A stretch of 64,000 nt of DNA from Zobellia uliginosa. GTDB lineage: Bacteria; Bacteroidota; Bacteroidia; Flavobacteriales; Flavobacteriaceae. Shown piece after piece: positions 4,274 to 37,022 of this stretch. The translations under genes were made by a program, and so were the position numbers. The stretch spans positions 310,001 through 374,000 of the forward strand of contig NZ_JAHKPY010000002.1 of NCBI RefSeq assembly GCF_018860745.1, in the 5' to 3' direction. Position 1 is the stretch's first letter. Every line of letters begins with the position of its first letter. The notes under the pieces are model-generated. The model made no database searches. It saw nothing but the letters and a program-made list of their open reading frames with translations, and was not told the origin of the DNA.

Positions 4274-4369
4274 TTTAAGATAGCAAATTAGAGCTCTCTT
4301 ATTGGCACTGTAAATTCATGGCAATTTTTTTACACTTTTGAAGTCCAATAGGGGAGCAAGCTATCTAAA
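4274..4369. terminator. Nested imperfect palindrome between convergent genes
   Basis: Outer arms TTTAAGATAGC (4274-4284) / GCTATCTAAA (4360-4369) pair except for one bulged A. Inner arms GCTCTCTTATTGGCACT (4293-4309) / AGTCCAATAGGGGAGC (4342-4357) pair with G-U pairs and one bulge. It lies exactly between the convergent stops at 4270 and 4361, and the outer right arm overlaps the end of the lactonase gene. A bidirectional terminator is the simplest reading; a small palindromic repeat element is possible. Confidence 0.4.
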
Positions 4370-5512
4370 TTTTAAACACACAGGCTGAGGCAATTTTGCT
4401 TCATGACCCGTAAAGGACAAAAGTCCAGAGGTCGCATCCCTTTTAAATACAGTTATATTTCCCGTTTTTCTGTTCGCTACGAGCAGAAAATTATTATCCG
4501 GTGATAGTGAGAAGTTTCTAGGCCAATCACCCTGAACGGACTCGGTACCCAACAAATTCAATTTGCCTTCATCCGAGACGGAAAAGGTTGCAATACTATT
4601 GTGCCCTCTATTACTCGCGTACAGAAATTTACCATCATTGCTCAAGTGAATATCGGCACAGGCGTTATTACCATCGTAATCTTCCGGTAAAGTACTTTTC
4701 TTATCAATTCTGGTAAAAGTTCCCGTTTCGGTATCCACATCGGCAGAAACTACGGAACTTCCTAATTCATTTATAATATACACCCTGTTTTTTGTTAGAT
4801 GAAAAATAAGATGACGAGGGCCGTCCCCAGGATCCAATTGTAAGGCTATACGCTCCTTTCCTAGCTTACCATCACTATCAATAGGGTAGGCGAGTATTTT
4901 ATCGATTCCTAAATCTACCGCATATAAAAAATCACCTGCTTTACTGAATTTTACACAGTGCGCATGGGCCGATTTTTGATTTTTATGAGGTCCTGTTCCC
5001 ACATGTTGTTTGGCTTCCGGTTGATCTATAATATTTCCTTTTTCATCCACAGGGTACATAACAATACCTCCGGAACCATAATTGGCAGCGGCAAGAAGGT
5101 CTTCCTTAGGACTTAACTCAATGTAGCAAGCACCATCGCCTTCACTGGAAAAATTTGAGGTTTTGATTAATTGGGTTCCGTCTTCGTTCCACTCAAATGC
5201 CGATACACTTCCCGGTTTTGTTCCGTTGGAAGAATAAACACGCTTGCCATCTTTGGAGAGGTACAAATACCCAGAATTGTCTTCTTTTACCAAATGTTCT
5301 GAACTTGATAATTCTCCGGTCTTAGGATTAAAATCTAATTGATAGATACCTTGCTCGTCACCGCTTGCATGCGTCCCGACGAGTAGTTTTAAACTTGTAT
5401 TTTCAATCTCTTGTTCAGCATTGTCCATAACCGTTTTTTTAGGCTCGTTTTTACATGAAAGTAACGTTGTTACGAGAATAAAAAATACTAGATAATTTGA
5501 GAAATGTTTCAT
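4361..5512 (-). CDS. Lactonase family (6-phosphogluconolactonase-like) beta-propeller lipoprotein
   Basis: A 383-residue seven-bladed propeller of the lactonase (Pgl/muconate-cyclase-like) family. A lipoprotein signal peptide ends in TLLSC (Cys20), so it should be anchored in an outer or periplasmic membrane, unlike cytosolic Pgl. Family repeats are visible: LVGTHASGDEQGIYQLDFN, GDGPRHLIFH, YASNRGHNSIATFSV, GDWPRNFSLSPDNNFLLVANRKTGNITVF. It is the last gene of the leftward locus, 18 bp after the GH9-like gene. In a sugar-degrading locus it could open an aldonolactone made by an oxidoreductase, but that is inference; many exported members have no proven activity. Confidence 0.82.
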   Translation of the reverse strand: MKHFSNYLVFFILVTTLLSCKNEPKKTVMDNAEQEIENTSLKLLVGTHASGDEQGIYQLDFNPKTGELSSSEHLVKEDNSGYLYLSKDGKRVYSSNGTKPGSVSAFEWNEDGTQLIKTSNFSSEGDGACYIELSPKEDLLAAANYGSGGIVMYPVDEKGNIIDQPEAKQHVGTGPHKNQKSAHAHCVKFSKAGDFLYAVDLGIDKILAYPIDSDGKLGKERIALQLDPGDGPRHLIFHLTKNRVYIINELGSSVVSADVDTETGTFTRIDKKSTLPEDYDGNNACADIHLSNDGKFLYASNRGHNSIATFSVSDEGKLNLLGTESVQGDWPRNFSLSPDNNFLLVANRKTGNITVFKRDATSGLLSFTGHEAKLPQPVCLKFR

Positions 5513-5530
5513 GTTAAAAATGACGTTAAA

Positions 5531-7471
5531 TTAGTGCTGAACGTTCAGGGTCAAAGATTGTTCAAATCCTAAGAACCCGTAAGATAGTTCTAAAATATTT
5601 ACATCTGTATTTTTGGGAATTTTAAACTTGGCAGTAAAAATTCCAGTGTTTATACCTGTTTCGGTAAGCGCTATATTTTCAGTTTGTTCCCCTGTTTTTA
5701 ATAGAACCCAGCCTTTATCTTTAGTGTTTCTATCCACATTAAGAGCTGCTTTCAACAGGATATTCACCGTCTGACCGGGTTTTACCTCGCTAATTTCTGT
5801 TGTACTTTCAGAATCAAGAACTTTTAGACTATGACTGCCCAAAGTAGAAAAGGTTAGCGTAGCTTGCCATCCACGGTTGGAGATTCCCCAACCTTCTGTT
5901 GCGTAGGCATTTTTACCAAAAACCCGACCTTCATTTTTACCTTCAATCGTTTCTACGGTTTCGGCTATAGGAAATTGACTATCCAATGGAGAACCATCTA
6001 AAGTTCCTCTTACTTTGCCCAATTCCCCAAACCCATTCGGATGTGATTGTGGCCACCCTTTTTCAACGCCTGGCCAATAACCACCAATTTTTACTCGATC
6101 ATCACTTTTATTGCTGAGATGCGTACCCACAGGGTTTACACCAAAAACAAAGTCGGTTTGTGCCCAGCCTAGCGCTCTAAGTTCCGGGTCATTTAATAGA
6201 TGTGCAACGGCAAACATAGAACCACCAAGAGCAGGAGCCCCACCCAATTCCTTGGTTTTTGGGTGCGCCCATTCGGATTCGCTATGCGTACGGTATTTCC
6301 AGAAATTGTTGGTTTTTTGTTTCATGTGAAGCGCCCAGGCTTCTAGTTTTTCTTTGGTCTCTTTTGGTGCTTTTTCAGGAGCCAATAATAAAAAGAAAGA
6401 TAATGCTTGTGGGGTAATATGTTCCGCATTTCTAATCCACCACATATGTCTGGGATTTTCAAAATCCCAATTCTTTATTATATCCGAAGCACCGGCTTGT
6501 GCCCATTTTAGAAATTTTTCCGGTGAACCGTCTTTTTCATGTCTTTCACATTCATACATTAAAAGATTACGAAAAACCGATTGCCCGTAGGCATTGCCCA
6601 TTTCATTGAATTCCTGAAAACCTTGGTCTACCCATTTAGTACTATACGTCCAAAACCGGACCACCTTATGCCGGTCATAGGCTTCCCAATTGTCCAAGCA
6701 GGCTTTTCGGTATTTCTGATAGGTTTCTTCGTCTAGATACGGTTTTAGAAAAGAATGGTACGCAGCGCAAACTGCTGCCAGTTGATCTAAAGTATTCCAA
6801 TAATCATAGGTCATTCTGGGTTGTCCTTGGTAGCCTAAAGTACCATGGCGTTTTTTTACGGGACCGTTATAATCTACATACTTGTACGCAAATTCGGCAT
6901 GCCAAAGAATCAGTTCAATGAGGTCGGCTACTTTTTTATCGCCCAATTCAGATTTCCAGTTGTCAAAAAGCGCTGGGTTACTGGCATATTGTAGAATTTC
7001 AAAAATAGTCTCTAATCCGTAGGCACCACCATCCCGCGTAGGCCCTCCACCGTAGACCGCAGCCATATCATAGGTGCTTAAATCTGAAAATCCTCTGGCA
7101 TCTACAAAAAAGTCATAGGCTAATTTTGAGGATGTTGTTTCTAGAAGATGATCGGCTATTAGAAAAGGAACGGAGCTTCCGTGTCCATCCGCTGTAATTA
7201 TAAATTCATCGGCAATTCCGTCCGGATTAAAATCTGAAAACCAACCTTCGTTGTTCAGAATTTCTCCTTCAAAAACAATTTTTGAAGTGGCGGTGTTTGT
7301 AATTTTAAAAGAAGTACCATCTTCGGCCCCATAGCAAACAAAGCGTTTGGATTCGTTTAGGTTATAGCCTAATTGATTGACATAGGGTTCAAACTTTCTG
7401 GTTTCATTTGTTTCCTGGGCATTGCAAAACATAGAAGCCAATATTAAGGCTGCTAATACTATTTTTTTCAT
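5531..7471 (-). CDS. Secreted GH9-like glycosidase with N-terminal cellulase-type Ig domain
   Basis: A 646-residue protein with a signal peptide (MKKIVLAALILASMFCNAQ). Residues about 28-115 match the CelD_N Ig-like domain typical of GH9 (VNQLGYNLNESKRFV). Residues about 120-530 look like an (alpha/alpha)6 barrel, with GGPTRDGGAYGLE and a late FGVNPVGTHLSNKS that resembles the GH9 C-terminal motif. The last ~110 residues form a beta-sandwich (KPGQTVNILLKAALNVDRNT). The standard GH9 catalytic signatures are not all recognisable, so I call it GH9-like rather than cellulase. It sits between a sulfatase and the lactonase with short gaps, suggesting action on an oligosaccharide of this locus. Confidence 0.6.
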   Translation of the reverse strand: MKKIVLAALILASMFCNAQETNETRKFEPYVNQLGYNLNESKRFVCYGAEDGTSFKITNTATSKIVFEGEILNNEGWFSDFNPDGIADEFIITADGHGSSVPFLIADHLLETTSSKLAYDFFVDARGFSDLSTYDMAAVYGGGPTRDGGAYGLETIFEILQYASNPALFDNWKSELGDKKVADLIELILWHAEFAYKYVDYNGPVKKRHGTLGYQGQPRMTYDYWNTLDQLAAVCAAYHSFLKPYLDEETYQKYRKACLDNWEAYDRHKVVRFWTYSTKWVDQGFQEFNEMGNAYGQSVFRNLLMYECERHEKDGSPEKFLKWAQAGASDIIKNWDFENPRHMWWIRNAEHITPQALSFFLLLAPEKAPKETKEKLEAWALHMKQKTNNFWKYRTHSESEWAHPKTKELGGAPALGGSMFAVAHLLNDPELRALGWAQTDFVFGVNPVGTHLSNKSDDRVKIGGYWPGVEKGWPQSHPNGFGELGKVRGTLDGSPLDSQFPIAETVETIEGKNEGRVFGKNAYATEGWGISNRGWQATLTFSTLGSHSLKVLDSESTTEISEVKPGQTVNILLKAALNVDRNTKDKGWVLLKTGEQTENIALTETGINTGIFTAKFKIPKNTDVNILELSYGFLGFEQSLTLNVQH

Positions 7472-7501
7472 TCTATCTTCAGTTTGTATAACGGAGTTAT
7501 T

Positions 7502-8989
7502 TTACTGGGTGACCGCATACTGAGTACGCAGCTCGCTAAGTTCTTTTTTCATTTCAGAAATCTTTTTTTCGGTGGCCGAAGTACCATAAATATTGTTCAT
7601 TTCCGAAGGGTCGTTTTTTAAGTCATAAAACTCCCACTCTTCCCCGTTGGGAACATCCTCGCCATAAAACCGAATGAGTTTGTAGCGTTTATTTGCAACC
7701 CCTTCGTGACGACGTACCGCGTGTGCGCCAGGGTATTCATAATAGTGGTAATACATAGATTTTCGCCAATCTTCTGGCGCTTTTCCTTTTAGTAGTGGCA
7801 CAACACTTTTACCTTGCATATCGTCAGGTATAGGAGCATCGGCAAGGTCAAGAAAGGTTTCTGCAAAATCTATATTCTGAACCAAATCGGTATTAACGCT
7901 TCCCGGTTTAATGTTCCCGGGCCATTTTACGATAAGCGGTGTACGGAAAGATTCTTCATACATAAAACGCTTATCGAACCAGCCGTGTTCACCCATATAA
8001 AAACCCTGATCAGAAGAATAGATTACGATGGTGTTTTCATCAAGCCCTTGTTCTTTAAGTGAAGCCATTATTTCACCAACGCTTTCATCAACGGACCAAA
8101 TGCAACGTAGATAGTCTTTCATGTAAGTTTGGTATTTCCATTTTACAAGGTCTTTGCCTTCAAGATTATCGGCTTTAAACTTGGCAAAACGTTCTTTATA
8201 CCGTGGGTCGTTGGCATAGCGCTCACCTTCTGCCTTTAAATCTGAATCAATTTTCATACTAGTGGCAATATCCATTTCTTGTTTGTGTGCAGCTGTAGTA
8301 CGTGTGCTGTAATCATCAAAGAAATTGTCCGGTTCGGGAATCTCTACATCTTCGTATTTGTTCATATAACGCTCCGCAGGATCCCAATTACGGTGCGGCG
8401 CTTTGTGGTGAACCATCATCATAAAAGGCTTATCTTGATCGCGTTCGTTTTCTAGCCAATTCAGGGCTCGGTCCGTAATAACATCGGTTACATATTCACC
8501 TTTGTAATTGGTGTCGCCTTCTTCGGTGATGAAGTCTGGATTGTAGTATTTTCCTTGTCCCGGTAAAACTTCCCAATAATCAAAACCTTGCATTTTTCCG
8601 GGCAAATGAATTTTTCCGATCATAGCGGTTTGATATCCGTTCTGACGGAGTATTTTTTGAAACTGCTGTTGGTCATGGTCAAAAATGGTTTTCTTGGTAT
8701 TGTCCAACTTTTTATGGAGATGGCTCATTTTTCCGGTCAATAAAGTAGCTCTACTAGGGGCACATATAGAATTTTCAACATAAGCTTTATCAAATCGCAT
8801 TCCTTGGGCAGCCAATTTATCAATGTTTGGGGTAGGGTTTAAAGTTTGAAGTCTACCGCCATACGCACCAATGGTTTGATAGGAATGGTCATCGGAAAAA
8901 ATCCAAACAATATTAGGTTTCTTTTCTTGTGCGATTGAGAGTAGTGGAAGCAGTGAAGCCACTAAAAAGAAGAATTTGTTGAGTTTCAT
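7502..8989 (-). CDS. Secreted sulfatase (S1/arylsulfatase family)
   Basis: Type I sulfatase of 495 residues with a signal peptide (cleavage near LLSIA-Q). Metal-binding DD at 33-34 (IFSDDHS). The formylglycine motif is C76-A-P-S-R80 followed by ATLLTGK, so Cys76 should be oxidised by a maturase. Further family motifs are GKIHLPG, HHKAPHRNWDP, SSDQGFYMGEHGWFDKR and a late YDLKNDPSEMNN. The HHKAPHRNW and GEHGWFDKRFMYEE stretches resemble exo-acting 6-O-sulfatases (S1_11-like), but subfamily is a guess. It is probably periplasmic and cotranscribed with the sulfatase pseudogene upstream (29-bp gap). It likely removes sulfate from galactose-type sugars released by the GHs of this locus. Confidence 0.9.
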   Translation of the reverse strand: MKLNKFFFLVASLLPLLSIAQEKKPNIVWIFSDDHSYQTIGAYGGRLQTLNPTPNIDKLAAQGMRFDKAYVENSICAPSRATLLTGKMSHLHKKLDNTKKTIFDHDQQQFQKILRQNGYQTAMIGKIHLPGKMQGFDYWEVLPGQGKYYNPDFITEEGDTNYKGEYVTDVITDRALNWLENERDQDKPFMMMVHHKAPHRNWDPAERYMNKYEDVEIPEPDNFFDDYSTRTTAAHKQEMDIATSMKIDSDLKAEGERYANDPRYKERFAKFKADNLEGKDLVKWKYQTYMKDYLRCIWSVDESVGEIMASLKEQGLDENTIVIYSSDQGFYMGEHGWFDKRFMYEESFRTPLIVKWPGNIKPGSVNTDLVQNIDFAETFLDLADAPIPDDMQGKSVVPLLKGKAPEDWRKSMYYHYYEYPGAHAVRRHEGVANKRYKLIRFYGEDVPNGEEWEFYDLKNDPSEMNNIYGTSATEKKISEMKKELSELRTQYAVTQ

Positions 8990-9018: not shown

Positions 9019-10470
9019 TTATAGTTTCCCGATTTCTCGGTTCTCAGTACCTTTTTCGATACCAACGTTAAGGTCGCCTAGTTCTTTTCTAGCTTTATTG
9101 ACCTCAAGCATCAGTTCTTTTACTTTTTCTGGGTAATAAGCAATTACGTTGAACCTTTCGCCTGGGTCACGCATCATATCGTAAAGTTCAGGTTCTTCAA
9201 CAACAGTTTTAATGCGTTTACCTCCATTACCGTTATTACCGGGTTCTGTGTTATAGCTGGCGTAAGTATGGGGTAATACAAGTTTCCAATTGCCTTTTCG
9301 TACTCCGTTTAGGTTGTTCTTCCCGTGATAATATAATATGGTGTTACGGGGCGTTTCGGAAAATTTTCCTTTCCAGAGAGATGAAATATCTACGCCATCT
9401 ATCTTATGGTTGGATAATTTTCCGTTTGTAATGGCCGCGAACGTAGGAAGTAAATCTACGGCACAGGCCAATTTGTGCGTAACCGTTCCTTCTGGAGTAT
9501 TGCCTGGCCACCGAATGATAAAAGGCACACGTTGTCCGCCTTCCCAACTGGTGGTTTTCCCCTCGCGTAATCCACCGGAAGACCCAGCATGATTTCCGAA
9601 ATTTAGCCAAGGCCCATTATCCGTGGTAAAAATAAAGATGGTATTATCGGCAATTCCGTTTGTTTTAAGGGCCTTATCGATTTCACCAACGGACCAATCA
9701 ATTTCCATCATCACATCGCCGTAAAGTCCTTGCTCGCTTTTTCCCCTAAACTTATCTGAAACGCCCAGCGGTATATGGGCCATGGTGTGCGGTACATATA
9801 GAAAAAAGGGCTCGTCTGCATTTCGATTTATAAAATCGACAGCTTTTTCAGTGTAAATCGTAGTTAGTTGGTCTTAATCCTGTAAATTCTTGATGTAGGA
9901 TGTAGCTTTGTTTCCTTCAATTAAAGGTAAGTCCGGAAAGTTAGCTCTGTTCATCTTATCGGAAAGATTTTCACCGGTAACATTATCTTGTGGCCACATG
10001 TCATTAGAGTAGGGCAGGCCAACAAATTCGTCAAACCCATGTTGTAGAGGTAAGAATTCTTTTTGCCAGCCCAAATGCCATTTGCCAAAACATGCCGTTT
10101 TATAGTCTTGCTTTTTGAACATTTCTGCAATGGTAAGTTCGTCTTTGTTCAGTCCAATGTCATGTTTTGGAAAAAGTGCTCCTGAAAACCCTATTCTATT
10201 GGGGTAACAACCGGTTAAAAGACCTGCTCGCGATGCACTGCAAACGGGTTGCGCGGCATAATAATTGGTAAATCGTGTGCCTTTAGCGGACAGATGGTCA
10301 ATATTTGGGGTTTCAAAACCCGTGGCACCATACGCACCAACATCCCCATAGCCTTCGTCATCAATAAAAACGAGAACTACGTTAGGTGGACGATTATTTT
10401 GATTTTGTCCAAAGCAGAGATTGCTAGGGAGTAGGGCGATTAAAACGAGTAAAATAGACGAGTATTTCAT
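9019..10470 (-). pseudogene. Sulfatase gene interrupted by one in-frame stop codon
   Basis: The N-terminal part (10470 to 9877, 198 residues) carries a signal peptide, the metal pair in FIDDEGYGD and the active-site motif C77-S-A-S-R81. A TAA at 9874-9876 ends it between two Asp codons. The same frame stays open without any shift through DQLTTIYTEKAVDF and on to the C-terminal part containing TTDNGPW, EGGQRVPFIIRWPG and ELYDMMRDPGE, ending at 9019. The total would be about 483 residues, the usual sulfatase length. One substitution (for example CAA to TAA) explains everything. It may be a recent nonsense mutation, an assembly error, or a stop that is read through. An internal ATG at 9783 could only yield a fragment without the active site. 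C-x-A-x-R is an accepted variant of the formylglycine motif. Confidence 0.85.
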
Positions 10471-10471
10471 G

Positions 10472-10604
10472 TAAACAGTGGTTTGGTTGTCATTGAACTA
10501 TAAAAAGGACTTTTTTGAACGAGCAAGAGGATAGATAGCTCCTTGATCCTCAAAAAAGTCCTTTGCTAAATGTAAGGTATTTATTAAGCTTTTACCACTG
10601 TTTA
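10472..10604 (-). repeat. 133-nt nested inverted repeat abutting the sulfatase start
   Basis: Outer perfect 11-bp arms TAAACAGTGGT (10472-10482) / ACCACTGTTTA (10594-10604). Inside lies a perfect 15-bp stem AAAGGACTTTTTTGA (10504-10518) / TCAAAAAAGTCCTTT (10550-10564), and inside that GAGC (10521-10524) / GCTC (10538-10541). In the - strand transcript the outer arm ends one base before the AUG at 10470, and the 15-bp stem is followed by TTTTTATAG, a T-tract. It could be a terminator after GH117, a leader structure controlling the sulfatase, or a small mobile palindromic element. Confidence 0.7.
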
Positions 10605-10647
10605 ACAACCTACTCATGGACTGTTATAATTTCAAAGGGAAACTATA

Positions 10648-11949
10648 TTATCGTCCTTCGGGATTTCTATTTTCATTAGGTTTTTGTGCAAAATAAACTT
10701 CAGGGTCATGATACACTCCTGTTTTTTTATACGATGGAATATCAACGTCAAGACTCAGGTCGCAATCAAAACGTGCCATGATGGAATATGCTTTTTTAGA
10801 ACTTTTTCCAGCATTGGTAAAATGAGAAAGTCCCCAAGTAACTCCTCTTCCGTCACCGGAATCTGTAAACGCATCAGCGGCAAAAGGTGCTGCTGCCGTT
10901 GGAGCTAGGGACACAACCGAAGCAATTTCAAAATTGACACCATCTTTGGCATATTGCATGGTGTACCTTTCATTACCATCTTTTATGGCCAATGTGGCTA
11001 CACCTTCCTTAAACGGGAAATAAGTGGTCTCGTGTCCGGAAGTCATAACTGGGTTTAAAGGGTGTTTTTCAAAAGGACCTAAAGGGTCTTCTGCAATTAC
11101 AAGACCATGGCCCACCGCATATTTATCGCGGATATCTGGCCATTTGTTATAAGCCGCTTTATAGTACAAGTGAATTTTTCCTTTGTAGACAATAGGTTGC
11201 GGGTCATGCGTAGCATCTTGGTCCCACTCTCCTTTTTTACCAAAAGGAATTACGGCATCCTTGCCATGTGTCCAAGGACCAGCGGGAGAATCTGCATATG
11301 AAACCGAAACGGGACACCAGTCTCCTCGTAAACCACTTGGTTCATTAAAAGCTTGATAGTATAAATAGTATTTTCCTTTCCAAATTAAAATATCGGGAGT
11401 AGCTACCGAACGCCAGCCGGGATTAGGTTTTTCAGGTCTTTTAATAGCGATACCTTCTTCTTTCCATGTAGTTCCGTCTTTACTCGTAGCATACCAAATA
11501 TCGCAAAGGTCCCAATCCGTAGAGGGAATTTCATCTGTAGCCTCTTTAGCACGGTTCCAACCAATAGGTGGCACTTTAGTGTCTCTTTTGGTATAGTACA
11601 TGTAGTATTTGCCATCTACCAAAATGGGTCTTGAAGGGTCACGACGCGATACGGTTCCATCACCACCATTGTAGTCAAAACCTTTTAAACGTGTGTATTT
11701 AAATTGAGAAAAAAGTTCGTTGTCCTGTACTCGTGGAGCTGGATAATCAAACATACGTTCGGCCGAAGCACTCAGTGGCATATCGGGTTTTTCCGCAGGT
11801 AGTTTATGTGGAAATACTTGATGTTCCGTTGAAGCGGTTTCTTCGGAAGCGGCAGGAGTTTTTTCTGATTTAGAATCTGAACAGGCAATGAAAGACCCCG
11901 CCAGTAAAAAACTCAAAAAATAGTGTTTGTACAGAGGTTTGAGCTGCAT
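10648..11949 (-). CDS. GH117 family alpha-1,3-(3,6-anhydro)-L-galactosidase-like lipoprotein
   Basis: A 433-residue lipoprotein (lipobox FIAC, Cys23) with a five-bladed beta-propeller. Family GH117 members release 3,6-anhydro-L-galactose from the non-reducing end of neoagaro-oligosaccharides. Matching stretches are KYTRLKGFDYNGGDGTVSRRD, VATPDILIWKGKYYLYYQAF, ATHDPQPIVYKGKIHLYYKA and PVMTSGHETTYFPFKEG. Acidic residues of the propeller core (Asp in SRRDPS and THDPQ) and the His/Glu in GHETTYFPFKEG are where I would expect the catalytic residues. The position next to sulfatases, GH2 and another propeller enzyme supports work on agar- or porphyran-type galactan. Family assignment is strong; exact linkage is inferred. 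Confidence 0.82.
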   Translation of the reverse strand: MQLKPLYKHYFLSFLLAGSFIACSDSKSEKTPAASEETASTEHQVFPHKLPAEKPDMPLSASAERMFDYPAPRVQDNELFSQFKYTRLKGFDYNGGDGTVSRRDPSRPILVDGKYYMYYTKRDTKVPPIGWNRAKEATDEIPSTDWDLCDIWYATSKDGTTWKEEGIAIKRPEKPNPGWRSVATPDILIWKGKYYLYYQAFNEPSGLRGDWCPVSVSYADSPAGPWTHGKDAVIPFGKKGEWDQDATHDPQPIVYKGKIHLYYKAAYNKWPDIRDKYAVGHGLVIAEDPLGPFEKHPLNPVMTSGHETTYFPFKEGVATLAIKDGNERYTMQYAKDGVNFEIASVVSLAPTAAAPFAADAFTDSGDGRGVTWGLSHFTNAGKSSKKAYSIMARFDCDLSLDVDIPSYKKTGVYHDPEVYFAQKPNENRNPEGR

Positions 11950-25964: not shown

Positions 25965-26006
25965 TCTTACTGTTAAATTTACTATTAATGAGTCAGCTAA
26001 TTAAGA

Positions 26007-26034
26007 AATAGGAGGCAAACTTGTACCTCCTATT
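26007..26034 (-). terminator. Intercistronic stem-loop after susD
   Basis: Perfect 9-bp stem AATAGGAGG (26007-26015) / CCTCCTATT (26026-26034) with a 10-nt loop, between the SusD stop (26065) and the symporter start (25964). The 3' side in the - direction is TTCTTAATT, a weak T-tract. It is more likely an attenuator or mRNA-stabilising structure that keeps SusC/SusD levels above the downstream enzymes than a full terminator. Confidence 0.45.
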
Positions 26035-26064
26035 ACATAAAACTAACAAAAACTAACTCACTTT

Positions 26065-30999: not shown

Positions 31000-31051
31000 A
31001 AGAGTAGTTTTAGTTGAAAATTGAGAGTTATACAACACTAACCAATACAAA

Positions 31052-31071
31052 GTCTAGTCTGGTCTAGTCTG
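31052..31071 (-). promoter_or_regulatory. Putative GntR operator upstream of susC (10-bp tandem repeat)
   Basis: Two exact tandem copies of GTCTAGTCTG (31052-31061, 31062-31071); on the coding strand CAGACTAGACCAGACTAGAC. It lies 53-72 nt before the susC start. A near-copy at 36805-36824 precedes block B, and the divergent GntR-type regulator gene starts about 300 bp away. The 10-bp period is one helical turn, which suits binding of two protomers on one face. Confidence 0.6.
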
Positions 31072-31076
31072 TTTAA

Positions 31077-31108
31077 CAAATAAATAACATTATTCTAAAT
31101 CTGCCAAA
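31077..31108 (-). promoter_or_regulatory. Possible Bacteroidota-type promoter of susC
   Basis: On the - strand a TTTG at 31105-31108 (-33 element) and TTTATTTG at 31077-31084 (close to the -7 consensus TAnnTTTG with one mismatch). The spacing of about 20 bp is as expected. Transcription would start close to 31070, on top of the tandem operator, which fits repression. The remaining 31109-31334 stretch holds no further clear structure. Confidence 0.35.
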
Positions 31109-31334
31109 TATTTAATTGTTAAATGTTTAAAATTGTACACGAATAATTTACATAATCACACATTTAGCGTCATATGTAAGTGCTTTCTTTATAAATACTA
31201 CTGACTATGAGCTAATTATAAATGAGTTTAATGGTTGTCAAATCCTTTTGAGGGGTAGTGGAGAGGTGATTTTTTCACTTTTCTTAACCTGATTTCTAAA
31301 AAGTTGTTGGTAAATCCGGTATTTTTAGTTTTAT

Positions 31335-31371: not shown

Positions 31372-32388
31372 ATGGTAAAACTTAGTATCGAAAAAAATTC
31401 AAAGAAGCCCAAATACCTTCTGCTGGCAGACAGTATTACGTCTCAAATTGAACAAAAGCAACTGGTTCTAAATCAGCGTCTACCTTCTGTAAACAAACTT
31501 TCGGCACATTTTAATTTTAGTCGAGAAACCGTATTTAAAGCACTCAACCACCTTAGTGAGAAGGGTATTGTTAGAGCTGTGGACAAAATAGGTTACTTTG
31601 TAAACGACCTTTCCGTCGAAACGGAATTCAAGGTGTTTTTTATGTTGGATAAGTTTACCCCTTTTAAAGAGGACTTGTATAACTCGTTAATTGCTCGGTT
31701 AGGTGATAAGGTAAAGGTTCGCCTTTATTTTCATCATCAGAACGAAGAGATATTTGCTCCGCTAATTTTGGACAACCTCAAAAACTACACACATTTTGTT
31801 ATCACTACTTATATAAAGGATTCTAAAACGGTAAAGAAGGTGCTGAACAAGGTTCCACCTGAAAAATTGATAATTTTAGATAAATACGAGCCGAATATTG
31901 ATGGGGACTGTGGCATGGTTTTTCAAGATTTTGAAAATGACATTTTCAATTTGCTGTCAGAGAATCTGGATAGGGTAAAAAAGTATAACAAATTGATGCT
32001 ATTGAATCCATTAAATGCGCCTCACGGAGATTTTGTTCAGAAAGGCTTTGAGCGATTTTGTACTGAATTTTCTTTTGAAAGCGATGTTCAAAATGGCTTT
32101 TCTACGGATTATTTTGAGAAAGGTTGTCTCTACATCACTATTGATGCTTATGATAGAGATATGGTAGAGATTATAAAAATGTGTCGCAAAGTGGGTTGGA
32201 AATTAGGTAATGAAATCGGTCTTATTAGCTATAACGATACGAGTACGAAGGAAATTTTAGATGGAGGAATCTCCGTTATCAGTACCGATTTTAAGAAAAT
32301 GGGAGAAGAAGCCGCTAAAATGATTTTAGAAGGACGAAGAGAGCGGAAAGGAAATGAGAGCCAACTGATTCTTAGAAGCTCTTTCTAG
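31372..32388 (+). CDS. GntR-family transcription factor with LacI-type ligand-binding domain
   Basis: A 338-residue regulator. Residues about 12-75 are a winged helix of the GntR type (ADSITSQIEQKQLVLNQRLPSVNKLSAHFNFSRETVFKALNHLSEKGIV). Residues about 90-338 resemble a periplasmic-binding-protein/LacI sensor (IGLISYNDTSTKEILDGGISVISTDFKKMGEEAAKMIL). Similar GntR/LacI hybrids in Bacteroidota sense free sugars in the cytoplasm rather than cell-surface oligosaccharides. It is the only + strand gene in the locus, divergent from susC and convergent with the CstA gene (9-bp gap between stops). It is the natural candidate to bind the tandem motifs at 31052-31071 and 36805-36824. Confidence 0.88.
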   Translation: MVKLSIEKNSKKPKYLLLADSITSQIEQKQLVLNQRLPSVNKLSAHFNFSRETVFKALNHLSEKGIVRAVDKIGYFVNDLSVETEFKVFFMLDKFTPFKEDLYNSLIARLGDKVKVRLYFHHQNEEIFAPLILDNLKNYTHFVITTYIKDSKTVKKVLNKVPPEKLIILDKYEPNIDGDCGMVFQDFENDIFNLLSENLDRVKKYNKLMLLNPLNAPHGDFVQKGFERFCTEFSFESDVQNGFSTDYFEKGCLYITIDAYDRDMVEIIKMCRKVGWKLGNEIGLISYNDTSTKEILDGGISVISTDFKKMGEEAAKMILEGRRERKGNESQLILRSSF

Positions 32389-36782: not shown

Positions 36783-36804
36783 AAAATAGAAATAGTGAAA
36801 ATAA

Positions 36805-36824
36805 AACTAGTATGGTCTAGTATG
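36805..36824 (-). promoter_or_regulatory. Second copy of the putative GntR operator
   Basis: AACTAGTATG (36805-36814) followed by GTCTAGTATG (36815-36824); on the coding strand CATACTAGACCATACTAGTT. Sixteen of 20 positions match the susC-upstream motif, in the same orientation and with the same 10-bp period. It lies 23-42 nt before the FAD oxidoreductase start. TATATTTA at 36832-36839 (- strand) is a possible -7 element next to it. Confidence 0.6.
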
Positions 36825-36964
36825 GTTTCGGTAAATATATAAAATTATTTTTAATCTAATAATCTAGCATGAAATAAGTGATGTTAATATTAATTGCAGG
36901 GTAAATATGAAGATTTGATATAAAGGTGATTTTCAATTTATATAATAAAGCTAGAATAAATAGA

Positions 36965-36999
36965 TATAAAAAATCCCCGAAGTCATGCCCCGGGGATTT
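36965..36999 (-). terminator. Rho-independent terminator after GH2
   Basis: Perfect 9-bp GC-rich stem AAATCCCCG (36971-36979) / CGGGGATTT (36991-36999) with an 11-nt loop. In the - direction it is followed at once by TTTATATC, giving a run of six T with the end of the stem. It lies 24 bp after the stop of the GH2 gene at 37023 and separates block C from block B. The 36825-36964 stretch between terminator and operator is AT-rich with nothing else recognised. Confidence 0.8.
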
Positions 37000-37022
37000 C
37001 TTAATGGATGAAATTAGATTAT

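Follow-up and report, generated by a model that had tools for sequence, protein, structure and literature searches.

Stem-loops that stabilise an mRNA from its 5' end are well established (review PMC7509114). Those of the E. coli ompA type share several properties with the Zobellia hairpin described here, which is likewise stable, predicted to sit at the very start of an mRNA, and conserved in structure while variable in sequence. Unlike them, it is situated inside an operon, and its start site and stabilising effect are predicted from sequence. Within operons, stem-loops are known from the clostridial cellulosome operon, where most of them have no U-runs and they are tied to transcript ratios (PMC4423207). 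The cip-cel stem-loops of that system resemble the Zobellia element in being orthologous hairpins that lie between the genes of an operon for polysaccharide degradation. However, most of them are found at 3' ends beside processed sites, whereas the Zobellia hairpin is preceded by a promoter-like block and belongs to a different phylum. Intrinsic terminators also place a stem-loop between genes, but the Zobellia hairpin has no conserved U-tract, its long stem carries a large irregular apical part, and the genes downstream of it belong to the same co-oriented cluster. In the same phylum, RNA features between genes of one operon were already described in Bacteroides thetaiotaomicron (PMC7366714). 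Those are separate sRNAs, while the Zobellia element is known, from sequence alone, as a cis hairpin. We consider it a new instance of a real, selected RNA element that is ordinary in kind. This locus was not found in the main texts of the Zobellia expression or regulon papers searched.

The window, that is, the whole 64-kb stretch of DNA analysed, contains a gene cluster which is a polysaccharide-utilization operon. All genes between the SusC-like receptor (31050) and the lactonase (4361), these two included, lie on the minus strand, tightly packed and with short gaps; a separate regulator upstream is the exception to this co-oriented run. The widest gap among the co-oriented genes from 31050 to 4361, 177 nt, separates a GH117-type gene from a sulfatase gene, and both of these flanking genes are for the digestion of red-seaweed sugars. 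SusC, SusD, the symporter and several enzymes are located upstream of this gap, while the distal segment 3' of it consists of the last four operon genes, which encode two sulfatases, a CelD_N-type hydrolase and a 7-bladed lactonase. In all nine Zobellia genomes the genes are arranged in this order, with a homologous gap. The GH117 protein matches over its full length the solved "conserved hypothetical lipoprotein" 4u6b, which we take to be Zg3597 of Z. galactanivorans. The features of the gap and its surroundings, in gene-sense order, are:

10648 to 11949, minus strand: GH117-type lipoprotein gene, upstream neighbour, orthologue of PDB 4u6b (presumably Zg3597)
10620 to 10630, minus strand: invariant block 1, ATTATAACAGT, identical in 9/9 species, centred at about -63 from the predicted transcription start
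10600 to 10608, minus strand: invariant block 2, TTGTTAAAC, identical in 9/9 species, centred at about -42 from the predicted transcription start
10594 to 10604, minus strand: outer arm on the GH117 side (5' arm in gene sense), overlapping the invariant block TTGTTAAAC
10567 to 10574, minus strand: -7-like box TACATTTA, TAMATTTA in the genus (consensus TAnnTTTG)
10500 to 10566, minus strand: inner RNA hairpin, 15-bp perfect core with a long inner extension and loop, kept in 9/9 Zobellia species
10480 to 10487, minus strand: ACCAAACC, just 5' of the sulfatase start, invariant in 9/9 species
10472 to 10482, minus strand: outer arm on the start-codon side (3' arm in gene sense), perfect pairing in 3/9 species
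9019 to 10470, minus strand: sulfatase gene, downstream neighbour, with one in-frame TAA at 9874-9876
4361 to 8989, minus strand: remaining distal segment with sulfatase, CelD_N-type glycoside hydrolase and 7-bladed lactonase

The preliminary description of this locus had reported perfect 11-bp outer arms and a perfect 15-bp inner stem, and both are present, the latter with arms at 10504-10518 and 10550-10564. It is also correct that the repeat ends one base before a start codon, since the outer arm ends at 10472 and the first base of the sulfatase ATG is 10470 on the minus strand. The gene-sense strand folds with -40.2 kcal/mol (z = -5.6), and none of the shuffled sequences was equally stable. 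The two repeats differ in how easily they arise by chance. Perfect 15-bp inverted repeats with a gap of at most 111 nt were absent from 40 shuffles of the 64-kb window, while 11-bp repeats with such spacing occurred 2.4 times per shuffled window; when the intergenic region alone was shuffled, an inverted repeat of at least 11 bp appeared in 0.85% of cases and one of 15 bp in none. The inner stem thus stands well above chance and needs explaining, while the outer arms fall within the look-elsewhere expectation of a 64-kb read and do not. The inner hairpin and the outer arms are separate things and not one element.

The inner hairpin forms at the same site in all nine Zobellia species, with varying sequence and maintained pairing, and starts in every species 0-3 nt past the same TTTA(G/A)C. 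The preliminary description had named a lack of any stem at orthologous loci as evidence against its proposal; the inner stem is there in all nine. Leader folds have z values from -2.8 to -4.9 across species, and the 5' arms of the inner stem match their own 3' arms best. In genome G008 the hairpin sequence is almost wholly different, GGTGTTATGG pairing with CCATAACACC. In a structure-fitted alignment of the nine species, two-sided changes were found at 11 of the 15 pairs of the inner helix (19 cells), a value as high being reached in 0 of 500 shuffles, although the nine species are related and amount to few independent lineages, and G008 is the sole source of several of these changes. In the same alignment 94.7% of cells are paired, compared with 62-64% when the 3' partners are slid by one column. 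Such an alignment is biased towards structure, but the pattern recurs when each species is folded freely, and a plain MAFFT alignment limited to six species already shows four two-sided pairs in the inner helix. Non-Watson-Crick pairs of the inner helix are nine G-U in gene sense versus one A-C, which indicates that the structure is kept as minus-strand RNA and not as a DNA cruciform or as antisense RNA. Judged by this comparison, the inner helix displays the compensatory changes that mark a conserved structured RNA, and the RNA structure of the hairpin is under selection throughout the genus, unique and fixed in place. A small ORF running through the hairpin in G000 was considered and rejected, as it has no conserved start codon and its ends vary among species.

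No Rfam family came near its gathering score, the best being a chance match to a miRNA hairpin (23 bits versus 80), and when 120 genomes sampled from the bacterial family were searched with the RNA model, no more than two weak matches outside Zobellia appeared (E 0.03 and 0.06). Orthologues of the GH117 gene in Pseudozobellia, Arenibacter and Kriegella (loci L112, L113, L115 and L116) are followed by a short gap and then a different sulfatase, and these loci have no region equivalent to the Zobellia gap. The gap and the hairpin thus go with a different gene arrangement, and as far as was searched the hairpin is restricted to the genus.

In the sequence preceding the hairpin, blocks 1 and 2 are a fixed 22 nt apart from start to start, with an intervening spacer which is variable in sequence and constant in length. 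Block 2 is followed by the -7-like box at exactly 25 nt in all nine species, and the stem base comes next. Fixed block spacing with variable spacers is, as a sequence pattern, typical of DNA sites around a promoter. The primary sigma factor of Bacteroidetes recognizes TTTG at -33 and TAnnTTTG at -7, and in F. johnsoniae transcription starts 4-5 nt past the -7 element (PMC6847099). TAMATTTA is one position off this consensus, missing the nearly invariant final G, and no -33 TTTG was found 19-21 nt upstream of it, so the box falls short of a Bacteroidetes sigmaA promoter; TAnnTTTA boxes are also common in these AT-rich gaps. If TAMATTTA is taken as the -7 element, the predicted start is 10561-10562. 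This falls within the stem, which has its base at 10564, and it would centre the two blocks near -42 and -63, positions at which activators commonly bind. Together, the blocks with their fixed spacing and the -7-like box suggest a candidate internal promoter starting near the stem base. Searched for as a shared regulator motif, the two blocks have no further full copies beyond chance in the 64-kb window.

Some conserved sequences elsewhere in the window deserve mention. The SusC promoter region (31051-31130, minus strand) is strongly conserved in the genus (TTATTTATTTGTTAAACAGACTAGACCAGACTAGACTT) and contains tandem GACTAGACCA-type repeats just downstream of a probable -7 box; the GntR/Peripla_BP-type regulator encoded at 31372-32388 likely has its operator here. 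The gap 36783-37022 contains a similar ACTAGACCATACTAG. The motif TTGTTAAACAG of the hairpin region is found again in the SusC promoter, but since its copy in that promoter overlaps both the operator and the -7-like box, it was rejected as a shared site.

The reading we prefer, with a probability of about 0.5, is that the hairpin is a 5' leader which protects a distal mRNA made from an internal promoter; the promoter, its start site and the stabilising effect are what we infer. The gap would encode a cis-acting RNA hairpin in gene sense, heading the distal four-gene segment of the operon. An internal promoter with activator-type sites near -42 and -63 would start transcription no more than about 3 nt from the base of the stem, and the distal mRNA would thus begin with the hairpin. 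The hairpin would shield the 5' end of this mRNA from nucleases and thereby set how abundant the mRNA is compared with the upstream SusCD-GH117 segment. Where read-through from upstream reaches it, the hairpin could act as a processing or decay barrier. In this way it probably tunes how much downstream messenger is made or survives. The preliminary description had offered a regulatory leader that hides the start as one of three guesses. Its leader part, confined to the inner hairpin, is the best supported of the three, while the hiding of the start depends on the outer arms, perfect in three of nine species and with no compensated pair, and is very doubtful.

The main rival to the leader dispenses with the internal promoter and assumes selective processing of one long transcript: after endonucleolytic cleavage close to the hairpin, the stem would protect either the upstream fragment at its 3' end or the downstream fragment at its 5' end. 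In both models the hairpin confers stability, and what separates them is the origin of the 5' end; stabilisation and processing are indistinguishable from sequence. Processing is in accordance with the co-oriented and tightly packed genes from SusC to the lactonase, with the use of such stem-loops by cellulosome operons (PMC4423207), and with a second conserved hairpin in the same operon, but it leaves the two invariant upstream blocks and their fixed spacing unexplained, and we regard it as rather unlikely. The second hairpin lies directly after the SusD gene (25965-26064, minus strand; AATAGGAGGT...GCCTCCTATT in G000), has matching arms in all nine Zobellia species, is preceded by a conserved TTTGTTTTTGTTAGTTT-like stretch, and fits either the leader or the processing model.

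The strong stem between operon segments, together with a short T-stretch past it in G000 and G006, could also be read as a partial terminator or attenuator that lowers transcription into the distal genes. The count of U in the 8 nt past the stem varies from 1 to 5 across species without a conserved tract, which makes the hairpin a poor intrinsic terminator and weakens the earlier suggestion of a terminator with a long stem. A terminator scan of the region found none, although with loops limited to 8 it would also overlook an irregular apical part. The terminator-like stem in the gap 36783-37022 looks different, being a GC-rich stem with a T-run, and there is no conserved partner for antitermination because the outer helix shows no covariation. 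Termination or attenuation is thus an unlikely explanation.

The outer arms are the subject of a further possibility, a translational switch, in which they would close over the sulfatase start region in read-through transcripts. The arms are paired at 11/11 positions in G000, G004 and G005 and at 10/11 in G002, G003 and G007. In G008 an alternative pairing of 8-9 bp is possible between the same two regions, and among six representatives cognate arms pair better than swapped ones (permutation p 0.008, driven mainly by G008); for these two reasons the switch is retained as a minor rival. Against it, none of the 11 outer pairs shows a two-sided change and seven depart solely by unpaired cells. 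The closest relative, G001, has 9/11 pairs with two uncompensated A-C mismatches, and only 5-6 of 11 are paired in G006 and G008, the former being without such a helix. The block TTGTTAAAC within the outer arm does not vary even in G006 and G008, which have lost its partner, and is therefore conserved for a reason other than outer pairing. From these comparisons the outer arms are not maintained, a functional outer helix is unlikely, and the switch is very doubtful.

Read in antisense, 10602-10630 (plus strand), which includes sequence of both blocks, is a near-perfect sigma70-type site, TTAACA-17-TATAAT with an extended -10, a kind of site that the primary sigma factor of Bacteroidetes does not use. 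An intra-operonic or antisense sRNA could possibly arise from the region through this site, and intra-operonic sRNAs do exist in B. thetaiotaomicron (PMC7366714). However, the primary sigma factor uses TTTG/TAnnTTTG (PMC6847099), no terminator was found in the region and the wobble bias points to the gene sense, which leaves such an sRNA highly improbable. The palindromic mobile element proposed earlier, which would account only for the nested inverted repeats, is refuted: the suggested search for other copies in related genomes, done as sequence searches of whole genomes, found one copy in the hairpin's own genome and one per genome in the nine species, always at the same site and diverging in sequence with the species.

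The downstream sulfatase, called interrupted in the preliminary description, indeed carries a single in-frame stop, the TAA at 9874-9876 (minus strand), and is otherwise intact, with the CSASR motif present and the frame open in eight relatives. The stop is a sign of either a recent pseudogene or a sequencing error. It lies about 600 nt into the gene, downstream of the hairpin, and the eight relatives with an open frame carry the same hairpin, so the hairpin did not break the sulfatase and the suggestion that it had helped to inactivate it falls.

More tentatively, the leader reading may be extended to an undescribed, genus-specific leader of marine Bacteroidetes, in which an activator-driven internal promoter would produce a hairpin-headed transcript by which the sulfatase and lactonase genes in the distal segment of a red-algal galactan operon are uncoupled from its SusCD-proximal part, possibly with the second hairpin after SusD taking part. 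The case shows how a maintained RNA helix can be told from an adjacent chance inverted repeat. Marine Bacteroidetes have long polysaccharide-utilization operons, and few studies address how transporter and enzyme genes within one operon come to be expressed at different levels; a structurally selected hairpin at a fixed position, together with a possible internal promoter, offers a concrete and testable control point.
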